64,000 nucleotides of DNA, from NCBI GenBank assembly GCA_001899635.1, contig MKVQ01000001.1, positions 201,441 to 265,440 of the forward strand, given 5' to 3'. The translations under genes and the position numbers were made by a program. Every line of letters begins with the position of its first letter. Within the stretch, counting starts at the first letter, position 1. The notes under the pieces are model-generated. The model ran no database searches. It saw only the letters and a program-made list of their open reading frames with translations, and was not told where the DNA came from. This document shows positions 2,881 to 38,290 of this stretch, piece by piece. The stretch is from Myxococcales bacterium 68-20 (lineage in GTDB: Bacteria; Myxococcota_A; Polyangia; Polyangiales; Polyangiaceae).

Positions 2881-4133
2881 GACGAGTCGTGGTCACCGGG
2901 ATGGGCGTCGTGTCACCGCTGGGCGTCGGCGTCGAACGCTCCTGGAAAGCCCTTGTCGAGGGGCAATCGGGAATTCGTCGAATCGAGAGTTTCGACGTCA
3001 GCGACATTCCCACCAAGATCGCCGGACAAGTTCCGCGCGGTGAAGGCGCAGGAGAATTCAATCCACTCTCCCTTGGGCCCGCCAAGGAATTGCGAAGACT
3101 CAGCGACTTCATCCTCTTCGCCATGGCGGCGACGCGGGAGGCGGTCGACCACGCGGGCTGGCGACCCACCGAGGAGTCGGAGCTCGAACGCACGGGCGTC
3201 CTCATTGGGTCGGGTATCGGTGGCGTTTCGCTGATTGCGGAGAATGCCATCAAGCTCGAGAAAGACGGTCCGCGGCGCATTTCGCCTTACTTCATTCCCG
3301 CGAGCCTCATCAACGAAGCGTCGGGTGTGGTGTCGATCGAATACGGGTTTCGAGGCCCGAATCACTCGGTCGTCACTGCCTGTGCCACGGGCGCTCACGC
3401 CTTGGGCGACGCGGCACGGCTCATTGCCATCGGCGACGCCGACGTCATGATCGCGGGCGGCACCGAGGCGGCCACCTGCCGACTGACACTCGCGGGCTTC
3501 TCCCTGATGCGTGCGATTTCGACGTCGTTCAACGACCGTCCGAACGAAGCGTCACGCCCGTGGGATCGCGACCGCGATGGCTTCGTCATCGGCGAGGGCG
3601 CCGGCATGGTCGTCCTCGAAGAGCTCGAACACGCCCGCAAACGCGGCGCGAACATCCTCGCGGAGCTCACCGGCTACGGTCTCTCCGGTGACGCCCACCA
3701 CGTCAGCGCCCCCGATCCCCACGGGGATGGCGCCCGCCGCGCGATGAAGGCCGCCCTCGAGCGCGCGCGCCTCTCACCCGACGCCATCGACTACATCAAC
3801 GCCCACGCCACCTCGACGCCCGTTGGCGACCCGGTCGAGATCGAGGCCGTCAAAACGCTCTTCGGCGACCACGCCCGCGCACTCTCGATGTCCTCCACCA
3901 AGTCCGCCACCGGCCACCTCCTCGGCGCTGCCGGTGCGGTGGAAGCTATCTTCGCCATCATGGCCCTCCGCGAAGGCATCGTCCCGCCGACCCTGAACCT
4001 TCATTCCCCCGACGAAGGCTGCGACCTCGACCTCGTCCCGCGCGAAGCCAAACGCCGCTCACTCCGCCACGTCCTCTCGAACTCCTTCGGCTTCGGCGGC
4101 ACGAACGCCGCGGTGGTCTTCAGCCCGGCGTGA
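2877..4133 (+). CDS. fabF: beta-ketoacyl-ACP synthase II (KAS II)
   Basis: At 418 residues this is the normal length for FabF. It catalyses decarboxylative condensation of malonyl-ACP with an acyl-ACP in fatty acid elongation. The catalytic triad is visible: Cys169 in VTACATGAHAL, His310 in NAHATSTPVGD, and His347 in SATGHLLGAAGA with Lys342. The N-terminal RRVVVTGMGVVSPLG is typical. It is not in a fab operon but coupled to a TetR gene by a 4-bp overlap, so it may be a secondary, regulated synthase rather than the housekeeping copy. The symbol is by family. Confidence 0.9.
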   Translation: MRRVVVTGMGVVSPLGVGVERSWKALVEGQSGIRRIESFDVSDIPTKIAGQVPRGEGAGEFNPLSLGPAKELRRLSDFILFAMAATREAVDHAGWRPTEESELERTGVLIGSGIGGVSLIAENAIKLEKDGPRRISPYFIPASLINEASGVVSIEYGFRGPNHSVVTACATGAHALGDAARLIAIGDADVMIAGGTEAATCRLTLAGFSLMRAISTSFNDRPNEASRPWDRDRDGFVIGEGAGMVVLEELEHARKRGANILAELTGYGLSGDAHHVSAPDPHGDGARRAMKAALERARLSPDAIDYINAHATSTPVGDPVEIEAVKTLFGDHARALSMSSTKSATGHLLGAAGAVEAIFAIMALREGIVPPTLNLHSPDEGCDLDLVPREAKRRSLRHVLSNSFGFGGTNAAVVFSPA

Positions 4134-29635: not shown

Positions 29636-29694
29636 ACCCAGCAGCGTAACTCGACCGGCGAAACGGGACCTAAAATCTCGCGCGCGGCGAGCAG

Positions 29695-29780
29695 TGGATC
29701 GGGAGGGAATTGAACCCCCATCGTCATCAAAGAACCTGTTTTACAGACAGGTGCGGCCATCCGATATCCGCCTCCGACCC
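29695..29780 (-). tRNA. tRNA-Tyr (GTA)
   Basis: Last gene of the array. Acceptor GGGTCGG pairs CCGATCC. The D-stem is GCGG/CCGC, the anticodon loop CTGTAAA reads GTA, and a medium variable arm and T-loop TTCAATT follow. CCA is not encoded. Confidence 0.88.
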
Positions 29781-29862
29781 GGAAATGACACTTGGCGCCA
29801 AGCCGAGGCCCGTGGATCGGGCCGATTTTCGGGGCCCTTTCAGCGGGCCCGCTCTTTTCGGG

Positions 29863-29946
29863 CGGAAGTCAGGCGACTCGAACACCATACCTTTCGGTAC
29901 GCACCGGGTAGCGGCCGGGCCCGCGACCATTCGCGGTTTGACTTCC
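29863..29946 (-). tRNA. tRNA-Ser (GCT), C33
   Basis: Acceptor GGAAGTC/GACTTCC with discriminator G as in serine tRNAs, and a long variable arm (GTACC GAAA GGTAT). The anticodon loop is CCGCTAC, giving GCT, but position 33 is C instead of U. Anticodon pair 27-43 and T-stem pair 49-65 are mismatched. Confidence 0.75.
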
Positions 29947-30080
29947 ATAAGCGAGGCTCGGGAGCGTTCGAGCCCACACTGCGGGTGCTCGAGGTGCGAG
30001 CCCCGAGTTGCACCCCCAACACACCGGGGTCGAGGCGGTAGCCTCTGCTCGGGCCGCGCTGGAAATGCGAGGCACGACGG
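29947..30080 (-). other. structured spacer, possible decayed tRNA
   Basis: This 134-nt gap contains several hairpins and a T-loop-like word (GTGCAACTC) next to a GTGTGTT loop that could read His GTG. No consistent acceptor stem closes a cloverlea-type fold. I read it as a decayed tRNA or an unassigned structured RNA. Confidence 0.3.
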
Positions 30081-30153
30081 TACGGGGCGAGAGGATCGAA
30101 CTCTCCTTCTCCTGCTTGTGAGGCAGGCGTCATCACCAGATGACGGGCCCCGC
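30081..30153 (-). tRNA. tRNA-Val (CAC)
   Basis: Acceptor GCGGGGC/GCCCCGT with one G-U, anticodon stem CCTGC/GCAGG with loop CTCACAA, T-arm GAGAG TTCGATC CTCTC. The D-arm is an extended stem with a six-base loop. Confidence 0.88.
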
Positions 30154-30225
30154 ATGAACGGGCGCTCCGGCGGGCCATCGGCGGAGCTGCCGAGTGGCTC
30201 GACCTGCAGACGGGGCACGCCCCGG

Positions 30226-30296
30226 TTCCGGAGGAGGGACTCGCACCCCCACCCCAGCGGTTCAAGGCCGCGGATCCTGCTCCTCTAACCTCCGGA
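30226..30296 (-). tRNA. tRNA-Gln (TTG), C33
   Basis: Acceptor TCCGGAG/CTCCGGA is perfect, with U1-A72 as in glutamine tRNAs. T-arm GGGGG TGCGAGT CCCTC. The anticodon loop CCTTGAA gives TTG but with C33. The D-arm is poorly paired. Only 71 nt. Confidence 0.7.
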
Positions 30297-30300
30297 TCGG

Positions 30301-30369
30301 TCGCTGCGGGCAGAGTCGAACCGCCTGGGCCGCGCGTATGAGACGCGCCCTCCTCCGAGGATCGCAGCG
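30301..30369 (-). tRNA. tRNA-Met (CAT), tiny D-loop
   Basis: Acceptor CGCTGCG/CGCAGCG is perfect; loop CTCATAC reads CAT. The D-arm is CCTC GGAG GAGG, a four-base loop, so the tRNA is only 69 nt. It could be elongator Met or a lysidine-modified Ile tRNA. Confidence 0.8.
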
Positions 30370-30409
30370 ATGGGTGCGCTCTGCATGGAACTTCCGCGAG
30401 CGTCGATGG

Positions 30410-30480
30410 AGCGGTGACCGAGAATCGCACTCGGATCTCGAGCGTGGCGTGCTCGGGTTCTACTGTTGAACTATCACCGC
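30410..30480 (-). tRNA. tRNA-Gly (GCC), C33
   Basis: Acceptor GCGGTGA/TCACCGC and all four stems are perfect (CGAGC/GCTCG, CCGAG/CTCGG). The anticodon loop is ACGCCAC: anticodon GCC with C33. The D-loop AACAGTA lacks GG. Because the fold is otherwise clean, C33 is not a decay effect. Confidence 0.88.
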
Positions 30481-30532
30481 AGGCGGTCGCGCAAGCGACG
30501 CCGGACGAGCCGGACCGCGGTTGCGTGCCTGG

Positions 30533-30606
30533 AGCCGCCCGAGGGAATTGCACCCTCCTCGTTCCTCGCTACCAGTGAGGTGCCCCGCTGTCTGGGCGTG
30601 GGCGGC
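30533..30606 (-). tRNA. tRNA-Thr (GGT)
   Basis: Acceptor GCCGCCC/GGGCGGC, T-arm GAGGG TGCAATT CCCTC, loop CTGGTAG with U33 reading GGT. Pair 31-39 is A-C. The D-loop AGACAGCG lacks the GG pair. Confidence 0.82.
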
Positions 30607-30730
30607 AGATGAGAGATCGCACGTTCCGCGTCGACAAAGGTGTGAAGGCCACGACGGGGCAGGGAGGCCCCGCCGTGGCCCTCACGCGAACGAGCCTTGC
30701 GCCTTCGACCGGTTCGAGCTCGCGGTGCGG

Positions 30731-32335
30731 TCAGGAGATCGAGATCGACTCGATCGCCTGGAGCAGAACGGCTCCGTTCGTCTCGTCCCGGGTGAAGGAG
30801 GCGATGATGTCGAAGGCGGAGTCCGAGAAGCCGCCGACCTCGAGGACGTCGGGGCGCCCGTGCGCCGAGGTGGTCGCGCGGGGCTGGAGGTCGACGAGCA
30901 CGAGCTTCGCGCGCGGGTTCCTCGCGCGAAGGCGGTCCCACTCCTCGATCATCACGGGGCCGCGTGTGCTGCCGTCGTCGCCTCGCCGCCGGAGGTCCAC
31001 CCACGACTCGTTGTCGGACACGAACACGACGAGGTCAGGGGCCTCGCCGCGTGCGTTGAGCCACCGGAGCGGCGCAGCGCAGGACGTCCCGCCGCCCGGG
31101 AGCGACGAGAGGACCTCGGCATTCGTGACCACCGAGTCGAGCGCGTTCAGCCGGCTCGCCAGCGGCAGCGGCACGACGTCGTCCGCGAACGGGAGCACCG
31201 TGGCGCGCTCGCTCTTGCGGAGGAGCGCGGCGGTCACCAGGGCGGCGACGTCGATGCAGCGGACCTTCGAGGTCGTGCTGCCTCGATGACCGGTAACCGG
31301 CGCGTGCATCGATCCGGAGACGTCCGGACAGAGCGCGACGGACCGAGGGACCTCCGGAACGTTCGCCACCGCGTGCTCGATGGATCGAGCGAGCGCGAAG
31401 ACGATCGCGGGCGGCATGCTCGCCGACACGGCGCGGTACGCCGCGAGGAGCTGATACGGGAGCATGCGCGAGAGCCTTACTGCCTCGGGGGCCGAGAGCT
31501 TCTCGGCGACCACGTCGACCATTGCGGGATCGGCGAAGACACCGTGCCGGAAGAGCGTGTCGAGGTTCTGCCGGAGCTGATTGAAGGTCATCGTCTTCGC
31601 CAGCGCGGTCCAGTGCTCGGCGCGCAGTGGGAGAGCGGTGAGCATCTCGAACGGAACGTCGGGCAGCGGCTCACGGTCGTTCTTCTTCCAGGCCTCGAAG
31701 GCCCGAGTGAGCGGTGGGAGCTTCGAGTCGTCCACGCTCCTTCCGATGAGGTAGCCGTAGAGGGCCTCACGGACGGCATCGGCTTCGCCCTCGTCGTTCC
31801 GCGGGGGAGGGCGAACCATCTTGATGACGTCCGACATGGACGGGCTCTGACCGATGGACTGGCGGAAGATGGTCTCGGGGCTCCTCGATGCGAACCACTC
31901 GCGGAGTGTGCGCTTCGGCGCCGAGCCGAACGACTTGCGGCCCGTGACGCCGGAGCGAACGATCCCGACGAAGGTTCGCAGCGCGCGAGCGTCGTCGATG
32001 ACGTGCGGGAACACCCGCTGCATCAGCGCGACGTCGCGGAACGAGAGCCAGGCGACGAGCTGCGCGGGGACGTCCTTCATCCTGCCGTGTTTCCGACAGT
32101 AGATGGCCGTCTTCGCGAGGAGCTCGGGGCGGACCGCGCTCGCGAGTCGAGAGAGCTTGTCGAGCTGCTCTTCGTCCGTGGCGTGGAACCTCCCGTGGAG
32201 GATGCCGGTCACGGCGTACTGCGCCAGCGCGAGCTCGTGCTCGGGCGAGAACGCGTTCGCCGAACCGCCAGCGTCGTCGACGGCGACGGGCTGGGAGGTC
32301 GTGTATTCGTGCTCGAATCGATCGTTGTTCAGCAT
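30731..32335 (-). CDS. Ro60/TROVE-domain RNA-binding protein (Rsr-type)
   Basis: At 534 residues this is the Ro60 length. Residues about 30-335 form the TROVE HEAT-repeat ring (for example YCRKHGRMKDVPAQLVAWLS, then GRKSFGSAPKRTLREWF and YGYLIGRS). The C-terminal vWA domain has MIDAS DVSGS at 338-342, a downstream GGGTS, and VVFVSDNESW. In the family the ring binds misfolded RNA ends and its outer face binds Y RNA; bacterial Rsr assists rRNA maturation and exoribonucleases. Start 32335 follows GGAGAACAGC; the longer frame runs back into a tRNA. It sits inside the tRNA array on the same strand as four Y-like RNAs at 35.9-37.5 kb. Confidence 0.93.
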   Translation of the reverse strand: MLNNDRFEHEYTTSQPVAVDDAGGSANAFSPEHELALAQYAVTGILHGRFHATDEEQLDKLSRLASAVRPELLAKTAIYCRKHGRMKDVPAQLVAWLSFRDVALMQRVFPHVIDDARALRTFVGIVRSGVTGRKSFGSAPKRTLREWFASRSPETIFRQSIGQSPSMSDVIKMVRPPPRNDEGEADAVREALYGYLIGRSVDDSKLPPLTRAFEAWKKNDREPLPDVPFEMLTALPLRAEHWTALAKTMTFNQLRQNLDTLFRHGVFADPAMVDVVAEKLSAPEAVRLSRMLPYQLLAAYRAVSASMPPAIVFALARSIEHAVANVPEVPRSVALCPDVSGSMHAPVTGHRGSTTSKVRCIDVAALVTAALLRKSERATVLPFADDVVPLPLASRLNALDSVVTNAEVLSSLPGGGTSCAAPLRWLNARGEAPDLVVFVSDNESWVDLRRRGDDGSTRGPVMIEEWDRLRARNPRAKLVLVDLQPRATTSAHGRPDVLEVGGFSDSAFDIIASFTRDETNGAVLLQAIESISIS

Positions 32336-32424
32336 GCTGTTCTCCTTTCCGAGCGAGCTCGGTGAGCGTGGGCCGGCCCGCGCGTGCTCGAGCGTGGCGG
32401 CATCGTGTGGTTGTCGAGGCGAGG

Positions 32425-32498
32425 CGTTCCCGACGGGATTCGAACCCGTGTTACTGGGTTGAGGGCCCAGTGTCCTTGGCCGTCTAGACGACAGGAAC
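32425..32498 (-). tRNA. tRNA-Glu (CTC), C33
   Basis: Acceptor GTTCCTG/CGGGAAC, discriminator G, D-arm of the Glu type (GTC..GAC), perfect anticodon stem CTGGG/CCCAG. The loop CCCTCAA gives CTC with C33. Confidence 0.85.
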
Positions 32499-32549
32499 AA
32501 TGAGAGCGACGCGTGCGCGTCGTCGATTGAAGCGAAGGCGGTCGAATGG

Positions 32550-32621
32550 GTGCAGCGGCTGGAGTCGCACCAGCGTCTCGAGCTTATGAGGCTCGCGGGG
32601 TGGCTCCTCCCCCACGCTGCA
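32550..32621 (-). tRNA. tRNA-Met (CAT), second copy
   Basis: Acceptor TGCAGCG/CGCTGCA is perfect, D-stem GGGG/CCCC, anticodon stem CGAGC/GCTCG, loop CTCATAA. Different in sequence from the CAT gene at 30301, so one of the two may be Ile-2. Confidence 0.85.
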
Positions 32622-32657
32622 CAACGGCTGTCGAGACTCGAGAGGCTCGACCGATGG

Positions 32658-32729
32658 CACCTTCGCCGGGAGTCGAACCCGGGAGAGCGAGCTTCGGAGG
32701 CTCGACCCTGATTCCGTCAGGACGAAGGT
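32658..32729 (-). tRNA. tRNA-Arg (CCG)
   Basis: Acceptor ACCTTCG/CGAAGGT, loop CTCCGAA, T-arm CCGGG TTCGACT CCCGG. The D-stem is one pair longer than usual. Confidence 0.87.
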
Positions 32730-32736
32730 GAGCTGG

Positions 32737-32807
32737 TCTCCTCGCCAGGAATCGAACCTGGACAACCGGCTTCGTAGACCGATGCGTGGTGCCACCACGA
32801 CGAGGAG
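32737..32807 (-). tRNA. tRNA-Arg (ACG)
   Basis: Acceptor CTCCTCG/CGAGGAG, loop CTACGAA (A34 as normal for Arg ACG), T-arm CCAGG TTCGATT CCTGG. D-arm GTGG..CCAC. Confidence 0.87.
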
Positions 32808-32825
32808 AGGGAGGACACGACAGGG

Positions 32826-32912
32826 AGGAAGAAAGAGGTCTCGAACCCCACACCCCTTCCGGGGTGCGCTTTGCTTTCGAGGCAAGCCCGGCTCCCAGCC
32901 GGTTTTCCTTCC
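32826..32912 (-). tRNA. tRNA-Ser (CGA)
   Basis: Long variable arm CACCCC GGAA GGGGTG, loop CTCGAAA, acceptor GGAAGGA/TTCTTCC with one G-U. The discriminator is T instead of the G expected for Ser, and the T-stem has a mismatch. Confidence 0.82.
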
Positions 32913-32951
32913 GTGTGCCGCGCAGCGGGCGCGCGCCGGGACGTTGCGTAG

Positions 32952-33024
32952 TGGTCGGTGAGGGAATCGAACCCCCTACGCGAAGTGTTTCAAACTTCCG
33001 CTCTACCAATTGAGCTTACCGACC
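32952..33024 (-). tRNA. tRNA-Phe (GAA)
   Basis: A regular cloverleaf: acceptor GGTCGGT/ACCGACC, anticodon stem GAAGT/ACTTC, loop TTGAAAC, standard D-loop with TTGG, T-loop TTCGATT. Confidence 0.93.
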
Positions 33025-33029
33025 GTGAG

Positions 33030-33116
33030 AGGAAGGCAGAGGAGTCGAACCTCACGCAGGTGCTTCCGCGCGAATCGCGTTCCAGGCGATCTCCGCCCCT
33101 GGCGGATTTGCCTTCC
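33030..33116 (-). tRNA. tRNA-Ser (GGA)
   Basis: Acceptor GGAAGGC/GCCTTCC, anticodon loop CTGGAAC, long variable arm, T-loop TTCGACT. Starts 6 bp from the Phe gene. Confidence 0.87.
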
Positions 33117-33142
33117 ATGTTTGGTGTTCGATCGACGAGTGG

Positions 33143-33217
33143 TCAGGACGGCAGGATTCGAACCTGCGGTCTCCAGTCCCCCAGACTGGCGCTTTTGCCG
33201 GGCTAAGCTACGCCCTG
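33143..33217 (-). tRNA. tRNA-Pro (GGG)
   Basis: Acceptor CAGGGCG/CGTCCTG, loop CTGGGGG in perfect stem CCAGT/ACTGG, T-arm GCAGG TTCGAAT CCTGC. CCA is encoded. Confidence 0.9.
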
Positions 33218-33388
33218 AGACGCCAGGACATACCCGGCTGTGCATGCCGAGACGCGGAGGTCGCGGCCGAGATCGGGGCCTCCACGAAGGAGGACCGAGA
33301 GAATAGGTGGTCCAGTTTCACGTCTTGGACCAGGACGCGGGAGAGTGCGACGACGCTCGGGCCGCCACATCAGGTGCGCGAGCGCGTC

Positions 33389-33922
33389 TCAGGCAGAGAG
33401 CGGAGCCGACGCAGCGTAGCCGTCGCAGTACGGCTGCCAGACATCGGGCATCTCACCCTCGTCGAGACGGACCGGCGGCACGACGGGCAGCGAGGCCGGC
33501 TTCTTCGGCTGTCGAAGCAGCTTCATTCCGGCCTGTTCGGGCGTGCGACTCCCCTTGCGAAGGTTGCAGGCGTAGCAGGAGGAGACGATGTTCTCCCAGA
33601 CGGTCTTTCCTCCCTGAACGCGCGGAATGACGTGGTCGTAGTTCAGCTGCTTGATGGGCTTCTTGTCGCCGCAGTACTGGCAGCGGAACTTGTCGCGCGT
33701 GAAGACGTTCACGCGAGAGAAGCGGACCGACTGCTTCGTCGACACCGACCCCTTCTTCAGGCGAACGACGGCGGGCGCCATCATCGCGACGCTCGGAGCG
33801 CGGAGCTCCGCGTCCCAGGTCTCGATGACTTCGACCTTGTCGAGGTAGGCCAGCACGACGGCGCGCTGCCACGAGATGATCTTGTGGGGCGCCATCCAGG
33901 GCGTCAGCATCAGCGTTTGCAT
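33389..33922 (-). CDS. HNH endonuclease family protein
   Basis: A zinc-type HNH domain is at residues about 75-135: CQYCG, LNYDHVIPRVQGGKTVWEN, and CYACNLRKG. The CxxC...CxxC ligands and catalytic His are present. Flanking N- and C-terminal regions have no second domain. The ATG at 33922 follows GAAGG. It lies inside the tRNA array, same strand. Such HNH proteins are also widespread chromosomal genes, so it need not be a homing enzyme. Confidence 0.88.
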   Translation of the reverse strand: MQTLMLTPWMAPHKIISWQRAVVLAYLDKVEVIETWDAELRAPSVAMMAPAVVRLKKGSVSTKQSVRFSRVNVFTRDKFRCQYCGDKKPIKQLNYDHVIPRVQGGKTVWENIVSSCYACNLRKGSRTPEQAGMKLLRQPKKPASLPVVPPVRLDEGEMPDVWQPYCDGYAASAPLSA

Positions 33923-34052
33923 GGGTCACCTTCTCTTTCTCTTCTTCACGGCTCGATCTCCTTTCGGAGGATTGGGAAGTCGTGCGAGGCACGACGACGG
34001 GAGCTGCTCGAGCAGACGATGGGGTGACCCGGGATCCCGGATGTGCGCGTAG

Positions 34053-34137
34053 TGTCACCGGAGGGACTCGAACCCTCAAACTCACGATGGAGCCCAGCAT
34101 CTCAGGCTGGCGTGTATGCCAATTCCACCACGGTGAC
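34053..34137 (-). tRNA. tRNA-Leu (GAG)
   Basis: Acceptor GTCACCG/CGGTGAC, loop CTGAGAT, long variable arm as expected for Leu, T-arm GAGGG TTCGAGT CCCTC. Confidence 0.9.
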
Positions 34138-34191
34138 GTATCTCGTCCACGTCGCGTCTGCGGGGATGTCGAGGTGTACCCGCGACGTTGG

Positions 34192-34268
34192 TACCGACGG
34201 AGGGATTCGAACCCTCACAACACACAGTTTCTGAGACTGCGGCCTCTACCAGATTGGGCCACGTCGGC
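34192..34268 (-). tRNA. tRNA-Leu (CAG), short variable region
   Basis: Acceptor GCCGACG/CGTCGGT, loop CTCAGAA, D-arm GGCC..GGCC, T-arm GAGGG TTCGAAT CCCTC, CCA encoded. The variable region is only about seven bases, short for a Leu tRNA. Confidence 0.83.
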
Positions 34269-34301
34269 ATGAAGAGCCGCGTCCCGAAGGAACGTGCTCG
34301 G

Positions 34302-34376
34302 TCTGTGCAGGAGGATTCGAACCTCCAATCCCTCCGACCCGAACGGAGTGCTCTAGCCAGATTGAGCCATGCACAG
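34302..34376 (-). tRNA. tRNA-Pro (CGG)
   Basis: Acceptor CTGTGCA/TGCACAG, anticodon stem CTCCG/CGGAG with loop TTCGGGT, T-arm GGAGG TTCGAAT CCTCC. Confidence 0.92.
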
Positions 34377-34416
34377 AGAACGAAGAAGTCGACGGCGAGC
34401 TCGCACGAGCCAGCGG

Positions 34417-34485
34417 TGGACCAGTCGGGAGTCGCACCCGAACCATCTGCTTGCAAGGCAGACGTCTCCCCTCGGAGACAAGCCC
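34417..34485 (-). tRNA. tRNA-Ala (TGC), tiny D-loop
   Basis: Loop CTTGCAA, T-arm TCGGG TGCGACT CCCGA. The acceptor GGGCTTG/CTGGTCC has wobbles and one T-T mismatch. The D-arm is TCTCC GAGG GGAGA with a four-base loop; only 69 nt. Confidence 0.75.
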
Positions 34486-34542
34486 GTAGTGAGCATCGCT
34501 CGCGCGAGGCCCGTGAAGTCGGTGAGCTTGGTGGCTCTCCGG

Positions 34543-34615
34543 TGCGGCGCGCAGGGATCGCACCTGCCTCCTCCTGCTCGTCATGCAGGCGCAGTCGCTA
34601 GACTGCCAGCGCCGC
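34543..34615 (-). tRNA. tRNA-Val (GAC)
   Basis: Acceptor GCGGCGC/GCGCCGC, anticodon stem CCTGC/GCAGG, loop ATGACGA, T-arm GCAGG TGCGATC CCTGC. The D-arm is a five-pair stem with loop CTAGCG. Confidence 0.88.
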
Positions 34616-34628
34616 GCGCCGTTCTTCG

Positions 34629-34701
34629 TGGATCACCTGCGAATCGAACGCAGTGCGGGCTCCGTATCAGAGAGTCCAGGGTAACCAACCCGTCGTGATC
34701 C
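34629..34701 (-). tRNA. tRNA-Ile (GAT)
   Basis: Acceptor GGATCAC/GTGATCC, loop CTGATAC, T-arm CTGCG TTCGATT CGCAG. The D-loop is five bases (TGGTT), and anticodon pair 27-43 is A-C. Confidence 0.85.
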
Positions 34702-34714
34702 GTTCGTGACCTGG

Positions 34715-34783
34715 AGAGCCGAGAGGGGGTCGAACCCTCGCGCGCCGTGTTGCAGACGGCGATCCTCGCCGGAGAATCGGCTC
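34715..34783 (-). tRNA. tRNA-Cys (GCA)
   Basis: Acceptor GAGCCGA/TCGGCTC with discriminator T as in Cys tRNAs, anticodon stem GCCGT/ACGGC, loop CTGCAAC. The D-arm is very short (loop CGGC). Confidence 0.87.
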
Positions 34784-34902
34784 GTGTCGCGAAGGCCTCA
34801 CGACCGCCTCGCGATGAGAGCGCTCGTGAGAGCCGAGAGAGTGGGCGCAGATTCCTCGTGGCACCGACGTCACGTGAAGCGTCGTGTGTTGGGGCTGCGC
34901 GG

Positions 34903-34973
34903 AGCGGACAGAGGGACTCGCACCCTCATTTTCAGTTTGGAAGACTGTGGTCCTACTTTTGGACGATGCCCGC
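34903..34973 (-). tRNA. tRNA-Gly (TCC)
   Basis: Acceptor GCGGGCA/TGTCCGC, loop CTTCCAA with U33, T-arm GAGGG TGCGAGT CCCTC, D-arm GTCC AAAAGTA GGAC without GG. Confidence 0.88.
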
Positions 34974-34979
34974 AGATGG

Positions 34980-35052
34980 TGGAACCGGCCGGACTCGCAC
35001 CGGCAACCTCCTCGATGCCACCGAGGTGCTCTCCTCGCTGAGCTACGGCCCC
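34980..35052 (-). tRNA. tRNA-Ala (GGC)
   Basis: Acceptor GGGGCCG/CGGTTCC, D-arm GCTC..GAGC, anticodon stem CCTCG/CGAGG with loop GTGGCAT, encoded ACCA end. Confidence 0.9.
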
Positions 35053-35085
35053 ATTTCGTATCGTGCACTTTCGTGTTGAGCTGAG

Positions 35086-35156
35086 TGGAGCGACGGGGAA
35101 TCGCACCCCGATCTCTGCAGTGCGAGTGCAGTGTTCTCCTGTTGAACCATCGCCCC
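35086..35156 (-). tRNA. tRNA-Ala (CGC)
   Basis: Acceptor GGGGCGA/TCGCTCC, anticodon stem CTGCA/TGCAG, loop CTCGCAC, T-arm CGGGG TGCGATT CCCCG. Confidence 0.88.
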
Positions 35157-35204
35157 GTCGACGAGCGACGAGCTGCGCGTGACGTCGAGACGCCGGACGC
35201 GCGG

Positions 35205-35275
35205 CGGGCCGCGAAGGAATCGAACCCTCTCTCCGGGTTTTGGAGGCCCGGCCGGTCACCATGACTCTGCGGCCC
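35205..35275 (-). tRNA. tRNA-Trp (CCA), minimal D-loop
   Basis: Acceptor GGGCCGC/GCGGCCC with discriminator G, loop CTCCAAA. The D-arm is GTCA TGG TGAC with a three-base loop, and anticodon pair 31-39 is C-A. Confidence 0.82.
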
Positions 35276-35307
35276 GAGTGCGAGCGATGTTCGGGCGTTC
35301 GGCCCGG

Positions 35308-35380
35308 CGCCTCGTATGGGGATCGAACCCACCTGCACTCCATAGACAGTGGAGCTGCGACCCCAGTCGCATCACGAGGC
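35308..35380 (-). tRNA. tRNA-Asp (GTC)
   Basis: Acceptor GCCTCGT/ACGAGGC, discriminator G, anticodon stem CTCCA/TGGAG with loop CTGTCTA, T-arm GTGGG TTCGATC CCCAT. Confidence 0.9.
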
Positions 35381-35413
35381 TTGAATCGATTCGTCGTTCA
35401 CACGCGGTACTGG

Positions 35414-35485
35414 TGTCCTCGGCAGGAGTCGAACCCGCGTCTGCCGGTTTAGAAGACCAGCGCCTATCCGCTCGGCCACGAGGAC
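35414..35485 (-). tRNA. tRNA-Arg (TCT)
   Basis: Acceptor GTCCTCG/CGAGGAC, loop CTTCTAA, D-arm GCCGAGCGGATAGGC. Very similar to the next Arg gene, so the two probably arose by duplication. Confidence 0.9.
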
Positions 35486-35522
35486 GAAGCTCGAGCCGAC
35501 CCGAGGCGCGCGTGCGCATCGG

Positions 35523-35594
35523 CGTCCCCGGCAGGAGTCGAACCTGCGTTGCCCGGCTTAGGAAACCGGCGCCTCTCCGCTCGGCCACGAGGAC
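35523..35594 (-). tRNA. tRNA-Arg (CCT)
   Basis: Acceptor GTCCTCG/CGGGGAC, anticodon stem CCGGT/GCCGG, loop TTCCTAA, T-arm GCAGG TTCGACT CCTGC. Near-copy of the TCT gene with a changed anticodon arm. Confidence 0.9.
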
Positions 35595-35643
35595 AGCTTG
35601 CTGTCCGCGCGGGCGAGCTCTTCGCGAGCAGGCGCGCGGTCGG

Positions 35644-35715
35644 TGTAGCGTACGGGGATCGCACCCGCCTCCGCTGAGTCACAGTCAGCCCTCGTCACTA
35701 GACGAGTAACGCTAC
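35644..35715 (-). tRNA. tRNA-His (GTG)
   Basis: Acceptor GTAGCGT/ACGCTAC with a G at -1 (35716), anticodon stem GCTGA/TCAGC, loop CTGTGAC. The discriminator is A instead of the usual C. Confidence 0.87.
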
Positions 35716-35800
35716 CACGATGTCATGTCGTCATTTGGTTGAGGTGTGTCAAGGTGTCTATATTTGGAATTGTCGATTCGTTTGGTTGCGACGTGCGTGG

Positions 35801-35872
35801 CACTCCCGGTCGGAATCGAACCGACACCTTCCGCTTGAAAGACGGAGATCCGGACCACTAGATGACGGGAGC
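35801..35872 (-). tRNA. tRNA-Glu (TTC)
   Basis: Acceptor GCTCCCG/CGGGAGT, discriminator G, loop CTTTCAA with U33, T-arm GTCGG TTCGATT CCGAC. It begins 7 bp after the Y-like RNA upstream. Confidence 0.9.
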
Positions 35873-35878
35873 AAGAGG

Positions 35879-36024
35879 GTCGTCCGAGTGAGCAGGCCAT
35901 CGTTCTGATGGCGGCTGGAAATGCCGGTGCCTTGACCACTTGGCTACGACGGCGAAAATCGCCGGCGGTTGGATTCGAACCAACGATCCCATTTGCGTGT
36001 AGGACCTGCTCGGTCGGACGAAGA
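35879..36024 (-). ncRNA. Y-like RNA 4 (permuted tRNA mimic)
   Basis: Order on the minus strand: stem strand TCGTCCG, ACCGAGCAGG, the constant CCTACACGCA, T-arm GTTGG TTCGAAT CCAAC, acceptor CGCCGGC, TTTT-closed turn, acceptor GCCGTCG (one mismatch), D-arm with TGGT, anticodon-like loop ATTTCCA (TTC), a hairpin, then CCTGCTCACTCGGACGA. The ends pair twice (CCTGCTC/GAGCAGG and CGGACGA/TCGTCCG) around an internal loop of the Ro-binding type. Confidence 0.78.
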
Positions 36025-36146
36025 GAGGTGGCTTCGCGAGAGAAGGAGAGGACGCGAGGGTCGCGCATCGCGCGGGCTCGCTCGCGGCTCTCGCGAGGCC
36101 AGATCAGTAGAGTCGGCGTGCCGGGGCAGAGCCGATTCGTGAAAAT

Positions 36147-36353
36147 GTCATCGCCCGAGTGGAGAAACCGGGTGCGTTTTCGTTCCATAAACGAATGCCT
36201 GACCACTAGGCTACCGGCACCGAGAGCTCGGACGATCGGAGGACCGCGAGCGGAGCTCGGCGCAGCGGAGGGCTACGTCGTGCTCGGGGGTACCGGGTTG
36301 GATTCGAACCAACGTTTTGATTGCGTGTAGGGTCTCTTCGGGCGGGCGATGAA
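36147..36353 (-). ncRNA. Y-like RNA 3 (permuted tRNA mimic)
   Basis: Terminal stem CGGGCGATGA/TCATCGCCCG is a perfect 10 bp. The inner helix GGTTTCT/AGAGACC has one wobble. T-arm GTTGG TTCGAAT CCAAC. Acceptor halves GTGCCGG/CCGGTAC are joined by about 70 nt. D-arm GCCTAGTGGTCAGGC, anticodon-like stem TTCGT/ACGAA with loop TTATGGA. It has the same constant words CCTACACGCA and CACTCGG as the other copies. Confidence 0.8.
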
Positions 36354-36518
36354 GCCGTTTCGCGTCGCGAGCGACGCGGAAGTCGAAGCACGGACGAGCG
36401 CCGTGCGGGAGAGGTAGCGCCGGGTCAGGCGGCGAGCCTGCCAGGCGTGGAGCTCAGATGCGAGCTCGGCAAGCTCGGCGTCGATCCGTTGTGCCGGACG
36501 CGCGAGCTGCGAGAGTAG

Positions 36519-36716
36519 GTCTTCACCCGAGTGAACAAGCCTTTGGGGATTCCCATCCTTTTTTAAGGAGCGCCTATACCAGTTTGGCTATCGCCGCGTG
36601 AGGCTCGGTGACTCGAGGAGTCAGCGCGCTTGGGTGACGAGCACCCGGTGCGGCGAGTCGGATTCGAACCGACATGTTCTCGATTGCGTGTAGGGCATCT
36701 TCGGGCGGGTGAAGAA
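36519..36716 (-). ncRNA. Y-like RNA 2 (permuted tRNA mimic)
   Basis: Terminal stem CGGGTGAAGA/TCTTCACCCG is a perfect 10 bp, with internal loop CACT facing CGAAG. T-arm GTCGG TTCGAAT CCGAC. Acceptor GCGGCGA/TCGCCGC is perfect although its halves are in reversed order and joined by about 50 nt with two small hairpins. The D-loop has TGG. The anticodon-like arm (TCCT/AGGA, A-rich loop) lacks U33 and could not decode. The inner helix is weaker than in the other copies. Confidence 0.8.
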
Positions 36717-36841
36717 GATCGATTGGGCTCGCGCGGCGGCTCCGGGCGTGGAGCGCGTGTCACGAATATGGCCGGCGATTGTCGAGCGGCGACGACGCCA
36801 TCGTGTCGCGCGAACGCGAGCCGGAGCTGCGCGGAGAGCGG

Positions 36842-36913
36842 AGCCCGCGTCCGGAGTCGAGCCGGATCCTCCCGGATACAAGGCGGGTGCTCGGCCAGTC
36901 GAGCTCCGCGGGC
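36842..36913 (-). tRNA. tRNA-Thr (TGT)
   Basis: Acceptor GCCCGCG/CGCGGGC is perfect, loop CTTGTAT, T-stem TCCGG/CCGGA. The T-loop begins with C (CTCGACT) and pair 31-39 is C-C. Sister of the CGT gene 240 bp away. Confidence 0.85.
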
Positions 36914-37151
36914 GAGGAGCCTCCTCCTCGGCGCTGCTCGAGCGCCGGAAGAGCCGGCATAGCCGACCGACCCTCGCGACGCGGCGTCTCGACGAGAGGC
37001 CGTATGCATCGCGCCGCGGCGGTGTCGTGCCGCGAGGGCGTTCAGTGTTGGGCTTGCCTGCGGTTCGCGCAAGTCCCTCGCGCCACTTTTTCATGTCGCG
37101 AGGGACGAGAGCGGGAGCGCGGCAAGCGCCGGGCGAATGAGCGAGTGAGGG
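36914..37151 (-). other. 238-nt spacer with a 10-bp hairpin
   Basis: The gap between the two Thr tRNAs holds a perfect inverted repeat, GTCCCTCGCG at 37073-37082 and CGCGAGGGAC at 37097-37106, around a 14-nt loop with a run of five T (A on the transcribed strand). No tRNA or Y motif was found. It could be a processing site or an unassigned small RNA. Confidence 0.4.
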
Positions 37152-37223
37152 AGCCCACGTCCGGAATCGAACCGGATCCTCCCGAATACGAGGCGGGCGC
37201 TCGACCATTCGAGCTGCGCGGGC
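37152..37223 (-). tRNA. tRNA-Thr (CGT)
   Basis: Acceptor GCCCGCG/CGTGGGC with one wobble, loop CTCGTAT, T-arm TCCGG TTCGATT CCGGA. Pair 31-39 is mismatched, as in the TGT sister. Confidence 0.87.
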
Positions 37224-37310
37224 AGGGTGCTCGCGGTGCACGCAGGCCGCGTCCACCGCAGAGTTGCGGAGTGCGAGGCGAGCGCGCCGGCGCGAGCGGG
37301 TGAGAAATTG

Positions 37311-37460
37311 GTTCGTCCGAGTGGAGAATCCGTTGCGATGTGCTCGTGTACGAAACGAGTGCCTTACCGTTTGGCGCGCGGTCCAGCCTTGCGGCTTGGT
37401 GGACCACGTTGGATTCGAACCAACATTGGGTGCGTGTATGGACTCTTCGAGCGGACGAAG
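37311..37460 (-). ncRNA. Y-like RNA 1 (permuted tRNA mimic)
   Basis: Terminal stem CGGACGAA/TTCGTCCG and inner helix GGATTCT/AGAGTCC flank the CACT/CGAAG internal loop. T-arm GTTGG TTCGAAT CCAAC, then acceptor GTGGTCC and ACCA. A hairpin AGCC GCAA GGCT closes the turn, followed by acceptor GGACCGC, D-arm GCCAAACGGTAAGGC and anticodon-like stem CTCGT/ACGAG with loop TTCGTAC. It starts 4 bp from the Asn tRNA. Confidence 0.8.
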
Positions 37461-37463
37461 GGG

Positions 37464-37536
37464 CTCCAGCGGAAGGAATCGAACCTTCGAATGGGCCGGT
37501 TAACAGCCGGCTGCCTGACCACTAGGCTTCGCTGGA
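37464..37536 (-). tRNA. tRNA-Asn (GTT)
   Basis: Acceptor TCCAGCG/CGCTGGA, discriminator G, anticodon stem CCGGC/ACCGG-type with loop TGTTAAC region reading GTT, T-arm GAAGG TTCGATT CCTTC. D-arm GCCTAGTGGTCAGGC matches that of Y-like RNA 3. Confidence 0.88.
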
Positions 37537-37690
37537 ATATGTGCTCGTCACGTACGTACGTGCTGCTGCCGTCTCGACGCGTCCGATCTCTTGCGAGGCG
37601 GAACGACGAAGCGGTCAGCGCGTACGTACGCGACGAGCCTTGGCGCCAAGTTGTCAGAGAGCGAGGGACCCTCGAGTGAGGGGCCGATAG

Positions 37691-37762
37691 TTCCGGGCAC
37701 AGGATTCGAACCTGTCTTTCTGGGTTCAGAGGCCAGTGTCCTGCCAGCTAGACGATCCCGGA
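37691..37762 (-). tRNA. tRNA-Gln (CTG)
   Basis: Acceptor TCCGGGA/GCCCGGA (U1-A72, last pair mismatched), loop CTCTGAA with U33, T-arm ACAGG TTCGAAT CCTGT. Pair 31-39 is C-C. Confidence 0.87.
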
Positions 37763-37830
37763 GCAGGTGACGGCGTGGCGAGCCAGAGAGCGCGCGCACG
37801 TCGCCGGAGCCGCGTCGTTCGACGCAGCGG

Positions 37831-37903
37831 TAGGTCCGGAGGGAATCGAACCCTCACCACCCCGGGTAAGAGCCGGGTGCGCTTCCAGTTGCGCTACGGA
37901 CCT
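37831..37903 (-). tRNA. tRNA-Lys (CTT)
   Basis: Acceptor AGGTCCG/CGGACCT, D-stem GCGC/GCGC, anticodon stem CCCGG/CCGGG with loop CTCTTAC, T-arm GAGGG TTCGATT CCCTC. Confidence 0.9.
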
Positions 37904-38217
37904 ATGAGTAGACGAGTCGTGTCGTGTGTCGGGGAGGTGTTCCTTCGTTCATTGATGCGGTTCGTGCGCGAGCGACGGCCTTGTCGCGTGCGAGACGAAT
38001 CGGCATCAGCAGTGGCCGAAGTGAGAGCGAGATGACTCCGGAGCGACCCATTGCCGAGAGCGGGGATGGAGGGAGAGGAAAGCGCAGTGAGCGCGCGTGA
38101 CGAGGCCGCTCGTCGAGTGCGGCGGCACATGCGCGAGCGATGACTAGCAGAGCGGCGCCACGTGCTGACGTGGCCTTCGGACCGCGTCGATGCTGCATGC
38201 GCGTGGCGCGCGGTGGG

Positions 38218-38290
38218 TGGGACGCGAGGGGATCGAACCCTCATCCCTCGGCTTAAAAGGCCGGTGCTCGGCCGATTGAGCTAGCGTCCC
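38218..38290 (-). tRNA. tRNA-Lys (TTT), first gene of the array
   Basis: Acceptor GGGACGC/GCGTCCC, normal D-arm GCTC..GAGC, loop CTTTTAA, T-arm GAGGG TTCGATC CCCTC. It is the promoter-proximal gene of the minus-strand array. Upstream, TATTCT near 38310 is the only -10-like word and has no good -35. Confidence 0.92.

Follow-up and report, generated by a model that had tools for sequence, protein, structure and literature searches.

Four Y-like RNAs with a circularly permuted tRNA architecture in a tRNA array of a Myxococcales bacterium

Introduction

In the bacterial Y RNA YrlA, the T-arm, an acceptor-like helix and the D-arm form a tRNA mimic that is circularly permuted relative to tRNA, as stated in two papers (PMC11472068, PMC8394870). 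The literature also describes YrlA as tethering Rsr to PNPase, and RtcB/Rsr operons as acting in tRNA damage (PMC8394870, PMC7790460). Mycobacteria and phages have tRNA array units, clustered additional tRNA sets with a proposed anti-defence role (PMC12803027). Here, we analyze four elements that lie on the minus strand inside a tRNA array, in a 64,000-nucleotide stretch of the genome of Myxococcales bacterium 68-20 (contig MKVQ01000001.1, positions 201,441 to 265,440; hereafter the window, with positions counted from its first letter). A first-pass annotation had taken them for four Y-like RNAs in which a tRNA is circularly permuted, and their structure, the null copies, the in silico rotation and the YrlA kin reported below all support that description.

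The analysis confirms that the four swapped-half elements with a closing stem are real, chance being excluded. The reading that we favor, with moderate confidence, is that they are YrlA/Y-type RNAs in which the tRNA mimic has been extended to a whole permuted tRNA, displayed on a Ro60-like protein and not used in decoding. Reviews mention Y RNAs that are nearer to tRNA than Salmonella YrlA, and Y RNAs with an anticodon arm may already be in print. A literature search found no paper combining the terms 'circularly permuted tRNA' and 'Y RNA'.

Results and Discussion

Each copy runs, on the minus strand, from a closing stem through a CTACACGCA-like spacer, the T-arm, the 3' acceptor strand and a linker to the 5' acceptor strand, the D-arm, an anticodon-like region and the other side of the closing stem; in copy 1 the spacer is ATACACGCA in place of the CTACACGCA-like form. 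This is the order with swapped halves that had been read earlier, and the strings and pairings quoted for it are all in the sequence. Copy 1 (37312..37459) has its closing stem at 37459-37452/37319-37312, the T-arm at 37424-37408, the 3' acceptor strand at 37407-37401, a 16-nt linker beginning with ACCA at 37400-37385, the 5' acceptor strand at 37384-37378, the D-arm at 37375-37361 and the anticodon-like arm at 37359-37343, with the loop TTCGTAC. Copy 2 (36520..36715) consists of the closing stem 36715-36706/36529-36520, the T-arm 36673-36657, acceptor strands 36656-36650 and 36597-36591 with a 52-nt linker, the D-arm 36588-36572 and an atypical anticodon region. For copy 3 (36148..36352), the corresponding parts are 36352-36343/36157-36148, 36313-36297, 36296-36290 and 36220-36214 with a 69-nt linker, and 36211-36197, followed by an anticodon-like arm at 36195-36179 with the loop TTATGGA. 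Copy 4 (35880..36021) is built from the closing stem 36021-36015/35886-35880, the T-arm 35984-35968, acceptor strands 35967-35961 and 35953-35947 joined by a 7-nt loop, the D-arm 35944-35929 and the anticodon-like arm 35927-35911, with the loop ATTTCCA.

The permuted tRNA-like domain of T-arm, D-arm and acceptor-like helix is present in all four copies, the D-arm of copy 2 being recognized by pairing alone. As claimed at first pass, the acceptors pair in the swapped order, over 7, 7, 7 and 6 of 7 positions in copies 1 to 4, and ARAGORN and Rfam call no tRNA at the four elements when these are read in the normal order. The 3-bp D-stem is fully paired throughout, and the stem at the anticodon position has 5, 3, 5 and 4 of 5 pairs. 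The end stem with an internal loop facing CACT was likewise found as described: the outer helix of this handle has 7/7 bp in every copy, the inner one 6/6, 4/6, 6/6 and 6/6, and the 6x6 internal loop places NCCGAN opposite NNCACT in the four copies, with CTCGAA in copy 1; this loop is also the usual one among the relatives. We take this loop to be of the Ro60 type, as in eukaryotic Y RNAs, and binding of Ro60 is predicted.

Minimum free energy (MFE) folds recover the T-arm, the swapped acceptor and the closing stem in all four copies, with z-scores of -3.61, -4.33, -5.13 and -4.55 for copies 1 to 4 and none of 200 shuffles of each copy folding as well. The anticodon hairpin is drawn tRNA-like only in copy 1 and, with three stem pairs, in copy 4. 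In copy 3 it has 7 bp and a 3-nt loop. In the fold of copy 2 the D region is drawn differently, and the place of the anticodon arm is taken by a hairpin of 5 bp with a 4-nt loop.

For the null test, a site was defined by a T-arm, a swapped acceptor and a D-arm, and was then inspected for a 7/7 Watson-Crick stem after CACT. The real window has this stem at 4 of 10 minus-strand sites and at none of the 3 plus-strand sites. Sixty first-order Markov copies of the 64 kb contain 277 sites, none with the 7/7 stem, and 300 null copies of the 8.8-kb array region contain 178, again none with the stem. On reversed sequences, our scanner gives one match in 502,905 bases. On the strength of the null copies and the reversed-sequence scan, chance or a tandem-tRNA artefact was rejected as the source of the elements.

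Further members were sought with the pattern ACACGCA-gap-T-arm in 183 genomes of the order, which yields 42 sites in 22 genomes; when reversed, the pattern yields 4, each in a different genome. A stricter pattern finds 54 stretches among 84,980 species, 44 of which are, by our reading, titled as Myxococcota taxa, and 11 stretches in viral sequences, two of which (L247 and, by eye, L240; L- and G-numbers are our handles for loci and genomes) were accepted as members. Of the 109 distinct motif sites, 84 could be parsed into a T-arm, an acceptor in swapped order and a D-arm, and 61 of the 84 also have the downstream CACTCG and the D-loop GG. Left out are the 23 parsed sites that lack CACTCG or the GG, and the 25 unparsed ones, some of them real-looking by eye (L240 and the first sites of L138 and L147).

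In 42 of these 61 RNAs, a stem of at least 4 of 5 pairs stands exactly where a tRNA has its anticodon stem, compared with a mean of 3.4 and a maximum of 10 in 200 shuffles. The handle helices, whose pairing was no selection criterion for the 61, are paired in 89.7% of cells for the outer helix (shuffles 71.6) and 94.3% for the inner one (shuffles 78.1). Within the 42 arm-bearing RNAs, all six helices have more cells with both-side changes than every one of 500 shuffles, the pairing of the T, acceptor, D and anticodon stems being partly by construction, as they were selected for. The anticodon stem has both-side changes at 5/5 pairs, in 95 cells (shuffle maximum 44). After rotation in silico, with an artificial variable loop, ARAGORN calls a tRNA in 41 of the 42, as against 1 of the 42 unrotated; copies 3 and 4 of the window are called, copy 1 is the one uncalled, and copy 2 lies outside the 42.

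A near-complete cloverleaf of this kind, together with the tRNA-like loop signature, is what would be expected if these were permuted tRNA genes giving working tRNAs, the precursor being cut in the handle, its ends joined, and the acceptor loop opened by RNase P and tRNase Z. An ACCA follows the copy 1 acceptor, the linker starts with ACC in 9 of the 42, the genome has four RtcB-type ligase genes (on contigs C43, C52, C49 and C4; there are five matches, but two are fragments of a single frame), and the last RNA before tRNA-Glu reads GTC in 3 of 4 genomes. However, the ends close in a stem, an internal loop and a stem, in which inspection by eye, not by a dedicated program, finds no bulge-helix-bulge, defined as 3-4-3 in PMC3978253. 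The anticodons, which are widely spread over the 42, also argue against working tRNAs: three are stop anticodons, and A34 occurs in 8 of the 42 vs 15 of 381 array tRNAs. The RNA after tRNA-Asn reads CGT in the window and (by eye) in G137, CAA in G138, GTC in G136 and TTT in G139, and is armless in G135; the second-to-last RNA before Glu reads ATG in the window, GTG in G135 and ACG in G137. We thus consider decoding by these RNAs unlikely, since the anticodons look arbitrary, with three stops, eight A34 and variation at the same array position, and the production of working tRNAs in the manner just described very improbable.

The anticodon loop itself has U33 in 34, R37 in 38 and A38 in 33 of the 42 RNAs, the corresponding numbers for the 381 array tRNAs being 346, 371 and 244. 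The U33 counts were set aside as proof against decoding, the contrast being less strong than hoped at 34/42 vs 346/381. That the anticodon stem and the loop signature are kept suggests that some handler of tRNA anticodon arms reads them. An assignment of copy 3 to His from its G-1/C73 pair was dropped, the same pair being found with many other anticodons, and a BLAST search of the rotated RNAs against array tRNAs for a parent isotype gave no clear assignment, in a database that included an array tRNA-Asn(att) call (L093) overlapping one of the permuted RNAs. As this overlap shows, annotation can mistake permuted RNAs for unusual tRNAs.

Another option is a two-piece mimic: cleavage of the acceptor loop by RNase P and tRNase Z would leave a nicked tRNA that has genuine 5' and 3' termini and the protein-binding handle as its variable arm. 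Such a tRNA may be charged and yet held by a Ro60-like protein. The 7-bp acceptor, the nine ACC starts after it and the long linkers of copies 1 to 3 (16, 52 and 69 nt) would fit such mimics. On the other hand, 30 of the 42 members have linkers of 3-9 nt, which look like closed loops; the linker of copy 4 has 7 nt, and ACCA is present in only 2 of the 42. We judge this option decidedly unlikely.

As for kinship with YrlA, which had been named as the nearest known relative, 11 of 14 loci with Ro60 homologues of 49-56% identity (L007-L020) have at least two tRNAs, two have one and L017 none. Of the 14 larger regions scanned (L034-L047), 7 contain YrlA-like RNAs, which have a T-arm, a swapped acceptor, a short loop and a D-arm and lack an anticodon arm; in the remaining 7 the scanner found no YrlA-like RNA. 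Three relatives near Ro60 that lack the arm exceed the gathering score (69 bits) of the Rfam YrlA model RF02553, in G040 (72.9 bits), G002 (70.6) and G035 (70.1), and the proposed kinship is borne out to this extent. The covariance check suggested for the window itself came out in two parts, since these relatives match and the window copies have no RF02553 match even at E<=10.

Sixteen cores were first aligned. MAFFT had misplaced the acceptor strands of three of them (L035, the first core of L038 and copy 1 of the window), which were therefore left out of the pair counts; window copies 2 and 3 were never part of this alignment, and no counts were taken from the MAFFT alignments A1-A3. The 13 cores counted (12 distinct, copy 4 among them) have both-side changes at 13 of 16 pairs, and their covariation score, for cores preselected for pairing, is reached by 0 of 500 shuffles. 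Among Myxococcaceae members of the CACTCG family, RF02553 gives sub-threshold scores of 35.8 (L225) and 24.3 bits (L205) with the arm, and 34.7 (L216) and 28.4 bits (L220) without a full one, but such matches mean little because 13 of 14 control genomes match at E<=1. One sub-threshold match of 37.7 bits in the window's own genome (G000:C19:140846-140932) is possibly a separate Y RNA.

It is at this point that one has to ask whether the window copies are simply ordinary YrlA RNAs, with an incidental anticodon-like hairpin, a T/D domain and handle that are the parts that matter, and the Ro60 of the array as partner. The relatives near Ro60 without the hairpin, three of them above the YrlA threshold, speak for this, as do the 19 of 61 motif-bearing RNAs in which it is missing, copy 2 with no normal one, and the Ro60 gene in the same array. 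Yet the hairpin stands at the exact tRNA position far more often than in shuffles, changes on both sides at all five stem pairs and carries a tRNA-like loop, and the presence of the RNAs does not follow Ro60 (7/22 genomes, 6.1 expected; see below). We give this explanation a minor but appreciable chance.

We now consider the protein partner. The gene at 30731..32341 (minus strand), inside the array, codes for a Ro60/Rsr homologue with TROVE and vWA_Ro60 domains; its profile match to 2nvo has an E-value of 1e-25 over nearly the whole profile, and it matches NCBIfam Rsr far under the equivalog cut-off. The first-pass annotation had pointed to this protein as a candidate partner. Its identity holds, but its partnership does not follow from the genomes, and its binding of the RNAs is putative. 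Ro60 is found at E<=0.001 in 51 of the 183 genomes and in 7 of the 22 pattern-positive ones (6.1 expected), and at E<=1e-50 in 27 and 6 (3.2 expected). A second protein with a vWA domain, at E<=1e-50, is present in 20 of the 183 genomes and in 17 of the 22, where 2.4 would be expected, all these expectations ignoring phylogeny. PF05731 is insensitive for Ro60, having missed the 72%-identical one of G137. The five pattern-positive genomes without the vWA protein are G143, which is 72% complete and has Ro60; G058, the site of which keeps the CACTCGGG end but is unparsed; and G035, G059 and G179, whose sites are not member-like. The presence of the RNAs thus tracks the vWA protein, the predicted fold of which is tentatively Ro60-like, and does not track Ro60.

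This protein, of about 585 aa with the vWA domain at its C-terminus, is encoded directly downstream of the RNAs in several myxobacteria and apart from them in the window's genus; its gene is followed by those for a 315-aa protein, a JAB protein, a small protein whose end lies near RPKVPFG and a ThiF/E1-like protein. For 15 of the 54 named stretches, the start of the vWA gene lies at most ~530 nt downstream of a motif site, many stretches being too short for more; two of the 15, L212 and L214, have a motif site without a convincing swapped tRNA. Examples of the operon are at L200:3187-7191 and in L193, L213, L219 and L230, and in the window's own genome the five genes lie in order on one strand at L251:6199-10548 (G000:C9). 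The AlphaFold model of the vWA protein has a mean pLDDT of 80 and a pTM of 0.47, and its ten best Foldseek matches in the PDB are all Ro60/TROVE (best E 8.9e-9); a Pfam search (L175, L179) gives no TROVE match. JAB is above the Pfam cut-off in L179 and under it in L200 and L206. The small protein of L176 has no Pfam match and is considered putatively ubiquitin-like because of its gene place and C-terminal end. For the 315-aa protein, Foldseek returns nothing at E<=0.001, and an E2-like reading from its DAGICL motif is unproven.

The favored interpretation, of a whole-tRNA mimic on a Ro60-like protein, can be spelled out as follows. The elements would be non-coding RNA genes of the YrlA/Y RNA kind, with a whole-tRNA mimic in permuted order that is degenerate in copy 2. 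Enzymes of tRNA processing probably free the RNAs from the transcript of the array; this is suggested by the position of copy 1, which adjoins tRNA-Asn, by that of copy 4, 7 nt from tRNA-Glu, and by the RNA stem that stands 2-4 nt after tRNA-Asn in the arrays of the genus. A Ro60-like protein would hold the RNA by its handle, the closing stem with the NCCGAN/NNCACT loop; to judge from the predicted fold and the co-occurrence, this partner may be the array Ro60, the vWA protein encoded elsewhere in the genome, or both. The protein could display the mimic to tRNA-handling enzymes or tRNA-cleaving nucleases; the mimic would act as a tether, a gate or a decoy, and its task would be the quality control of tRNAs or the response to damage. 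A role of this type is our best guess by analogy to the known roles of YrlA and RtcB/Rsr.

A bolder version, which we regard as unlikely, is that the RNAs are the baits of an RNA-damage alarm, in which mimics with many anticodons are held on the Ro60-like protein. A toxin or phage nuclease would cut one of them, the protein would then switch on the E1/JAB/ubiquitin-like module, and the tRNA array would supply replacement tRNAs.

It is important to note that several observations weigh against the favored interpretation. Apart from the missing RF02553 match of the window copies, our YrlA-core model R1, which has copy 4 in its training set, gives copy 2 44.5 bits, copy 1 37.7 bits and a part of copy 3 19.9 bits, and a tandem-tRNA artefact at 35547-35462 scores 37.1 bits, near copy 1; its tally of 151 of 183 genomes was not used as a count because R1 alone is not specific. 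Besides the stem pairing that is partly built in by selection, rotated halves mixed from different RNAs are still called tRNA in 50 of 125 cases. The loop keeps tRNA rules close to those of the array tRNAs, which leaves room for a decoding-related role, and an ordinary array tRNA (L098) also has a stop anticodon, CTA. On the protein side, phylogeny does not enter the expected co-occurrence, the Foldseek TM-scores by query length are just 0.29-0.35, VIA-align gives a Z of 13.5 over 417 residues at an rmsd of 9.5, level with vWA-only chains, and the profile-profile comparison with Ro60 is weak, at 6% probability. Finally, when the 1.2 kb in front of the vWA gene was scanned in the window's own genome (L251) and five genus mates (L252-L255, L257), no RNA of this kind turned up, so that in this genus the partnership rests on co-occurrence.

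The tRNA array itself covers 29694..38290 on the minus strand, with 32 ARAGORN calls and a tRNA-Thr(TGT) at 36842-36913 that is matched by Rfam (40 bits) and has no ARAGORN call. The tRNA-Asn at 37461..37537 (minus strand) adjoins copy 1 with its 3' end, with a gap of ~2 nt. Seven of the arrays compared have tRNA-Asn; in six of them the gap measures 2-4 nt, and in the seventh (L096) no such RNA follows it directly. Six of eight genus loci compared read Lys-Lys-Gln-Asn, RNA, Thr, with three RNAs in a row in L092; L095 and L096 depart from this order. The array had been thought of as a full tRNA set, within which four divergent copies were the novelty. It holds 24 of the 71 Rfam tRNA matches of the genome; the other 47 include the 19 best scores, and the host array therefore looks accessory. 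The supposed novelty does not stand as worded, since the setting is common to genus mates at the same place and other members occur elsewhere, beside the vWA operon or in stretches without tRNA (L179, L099, L102).

One could suspect a decaying array, in which the elements are the debris of degenerating tRNA halves, in view of the lower scores of its tRNAs relative to the best ones elsewhere in the genome, the 35 of 381 array tRNAs without U33 and the degenerate anticodon arm of copy 2. The order and spacing kept in genus mates, the covariation of handle and cores, and the count of 0 in 60 null copies make this scarcely credible.

Also inside the array is an HNH endonuclease gene (33389..33922, minus strand), with weak matches to PtuB/PDC-type defence models; homologues lie near such RNAs in several relatives and on one viral contig. 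The latter, L240 (IMGVR_UViG_3300025536_000012), is 136 kb long and has 35 tRNAs in 9 kb, a part of an HNH homologue, and an RNA at 3600-3790 that the script leaves unparsed and in which an anticodon arm with the loop CTATTAA can be read by eye. The other viral member, L247 (IMGVR_UViG_3300029258_002750, 275 kb), is a related RNA without an anticodon arm near a Ro60 homologue of 37.5% identity. A BLAST search of copy 2 against phage records gave three short matches only. Further permuted tRNA-like RNAs lie 0.7-0.9 kb downstream of Ro60 in L093 (plus strand, 13198) and L096 (minus strand, 8804), with anticodon loops of the Asn (GTT) and Tyr (GTA) types and a GTCAC-type 3' motif; the scanner found none at the corresponding place downstream of Ro60 in the window.

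Comparison with Known Systems

If the favored interpretation is correct, the tRNA mimicry of Y RNAs grows from a part of the tRNA to nearly the whole of it, in dozens of members with freely varying anticodons. The co-occurrence ties these RNAs to a putative second Ro60-like protein that is encoded with ubiquitin-like machinery, and the system offers a concrete setting for testing the function of bacterial Ro60/Y RNA particles and why tRNA arrays carry such RNAs.

With YrlA (Rfam RF02553; Salmonella YrlA, PDB 6CU1), the elements share the permuted mimic of T-arm, acceptor and D-arm, an end stem predicted to bind protein, and a nearby Ro60 homologue. They differ from it in lacking an Rfam match in the window, in the added anticodon-like arm (degenerate in copy 2), in the long acceptor linkers of three copies and in their location in a tRNA array. 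As in the circularly permuted tRNA genes of algae and one archaeon, the 3' half precedes the 5' half and rotation restores a cloverleaf; unlike in those genes, there is a Y-type handle, no bulge-helix-bulge is seen at the junction, and the anticodons are not conserved. The array resembles the mycobacterial and phage tRNA array units in being a cluster of tRNAs beyond those encoded elsewhere in the genome, but it includes Ro60 and permuted Y-like RNAs. Compared with Ro60/Rsr (PDB 2nvo, 1yvp), the array protein is alike by profile and the vWA protein may be so by predicted fold, Ro60 coming first among its matches, whereas the vWA protein has no Pfam TROVE and is encoded beside the 315-aa, JAB, putative ubiquitin-like and ThiF/E1 proteins. 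The distinctive points are thus the anticodon arm with its apparently arbitrary anticodons and the putative second Ro60-like protein.

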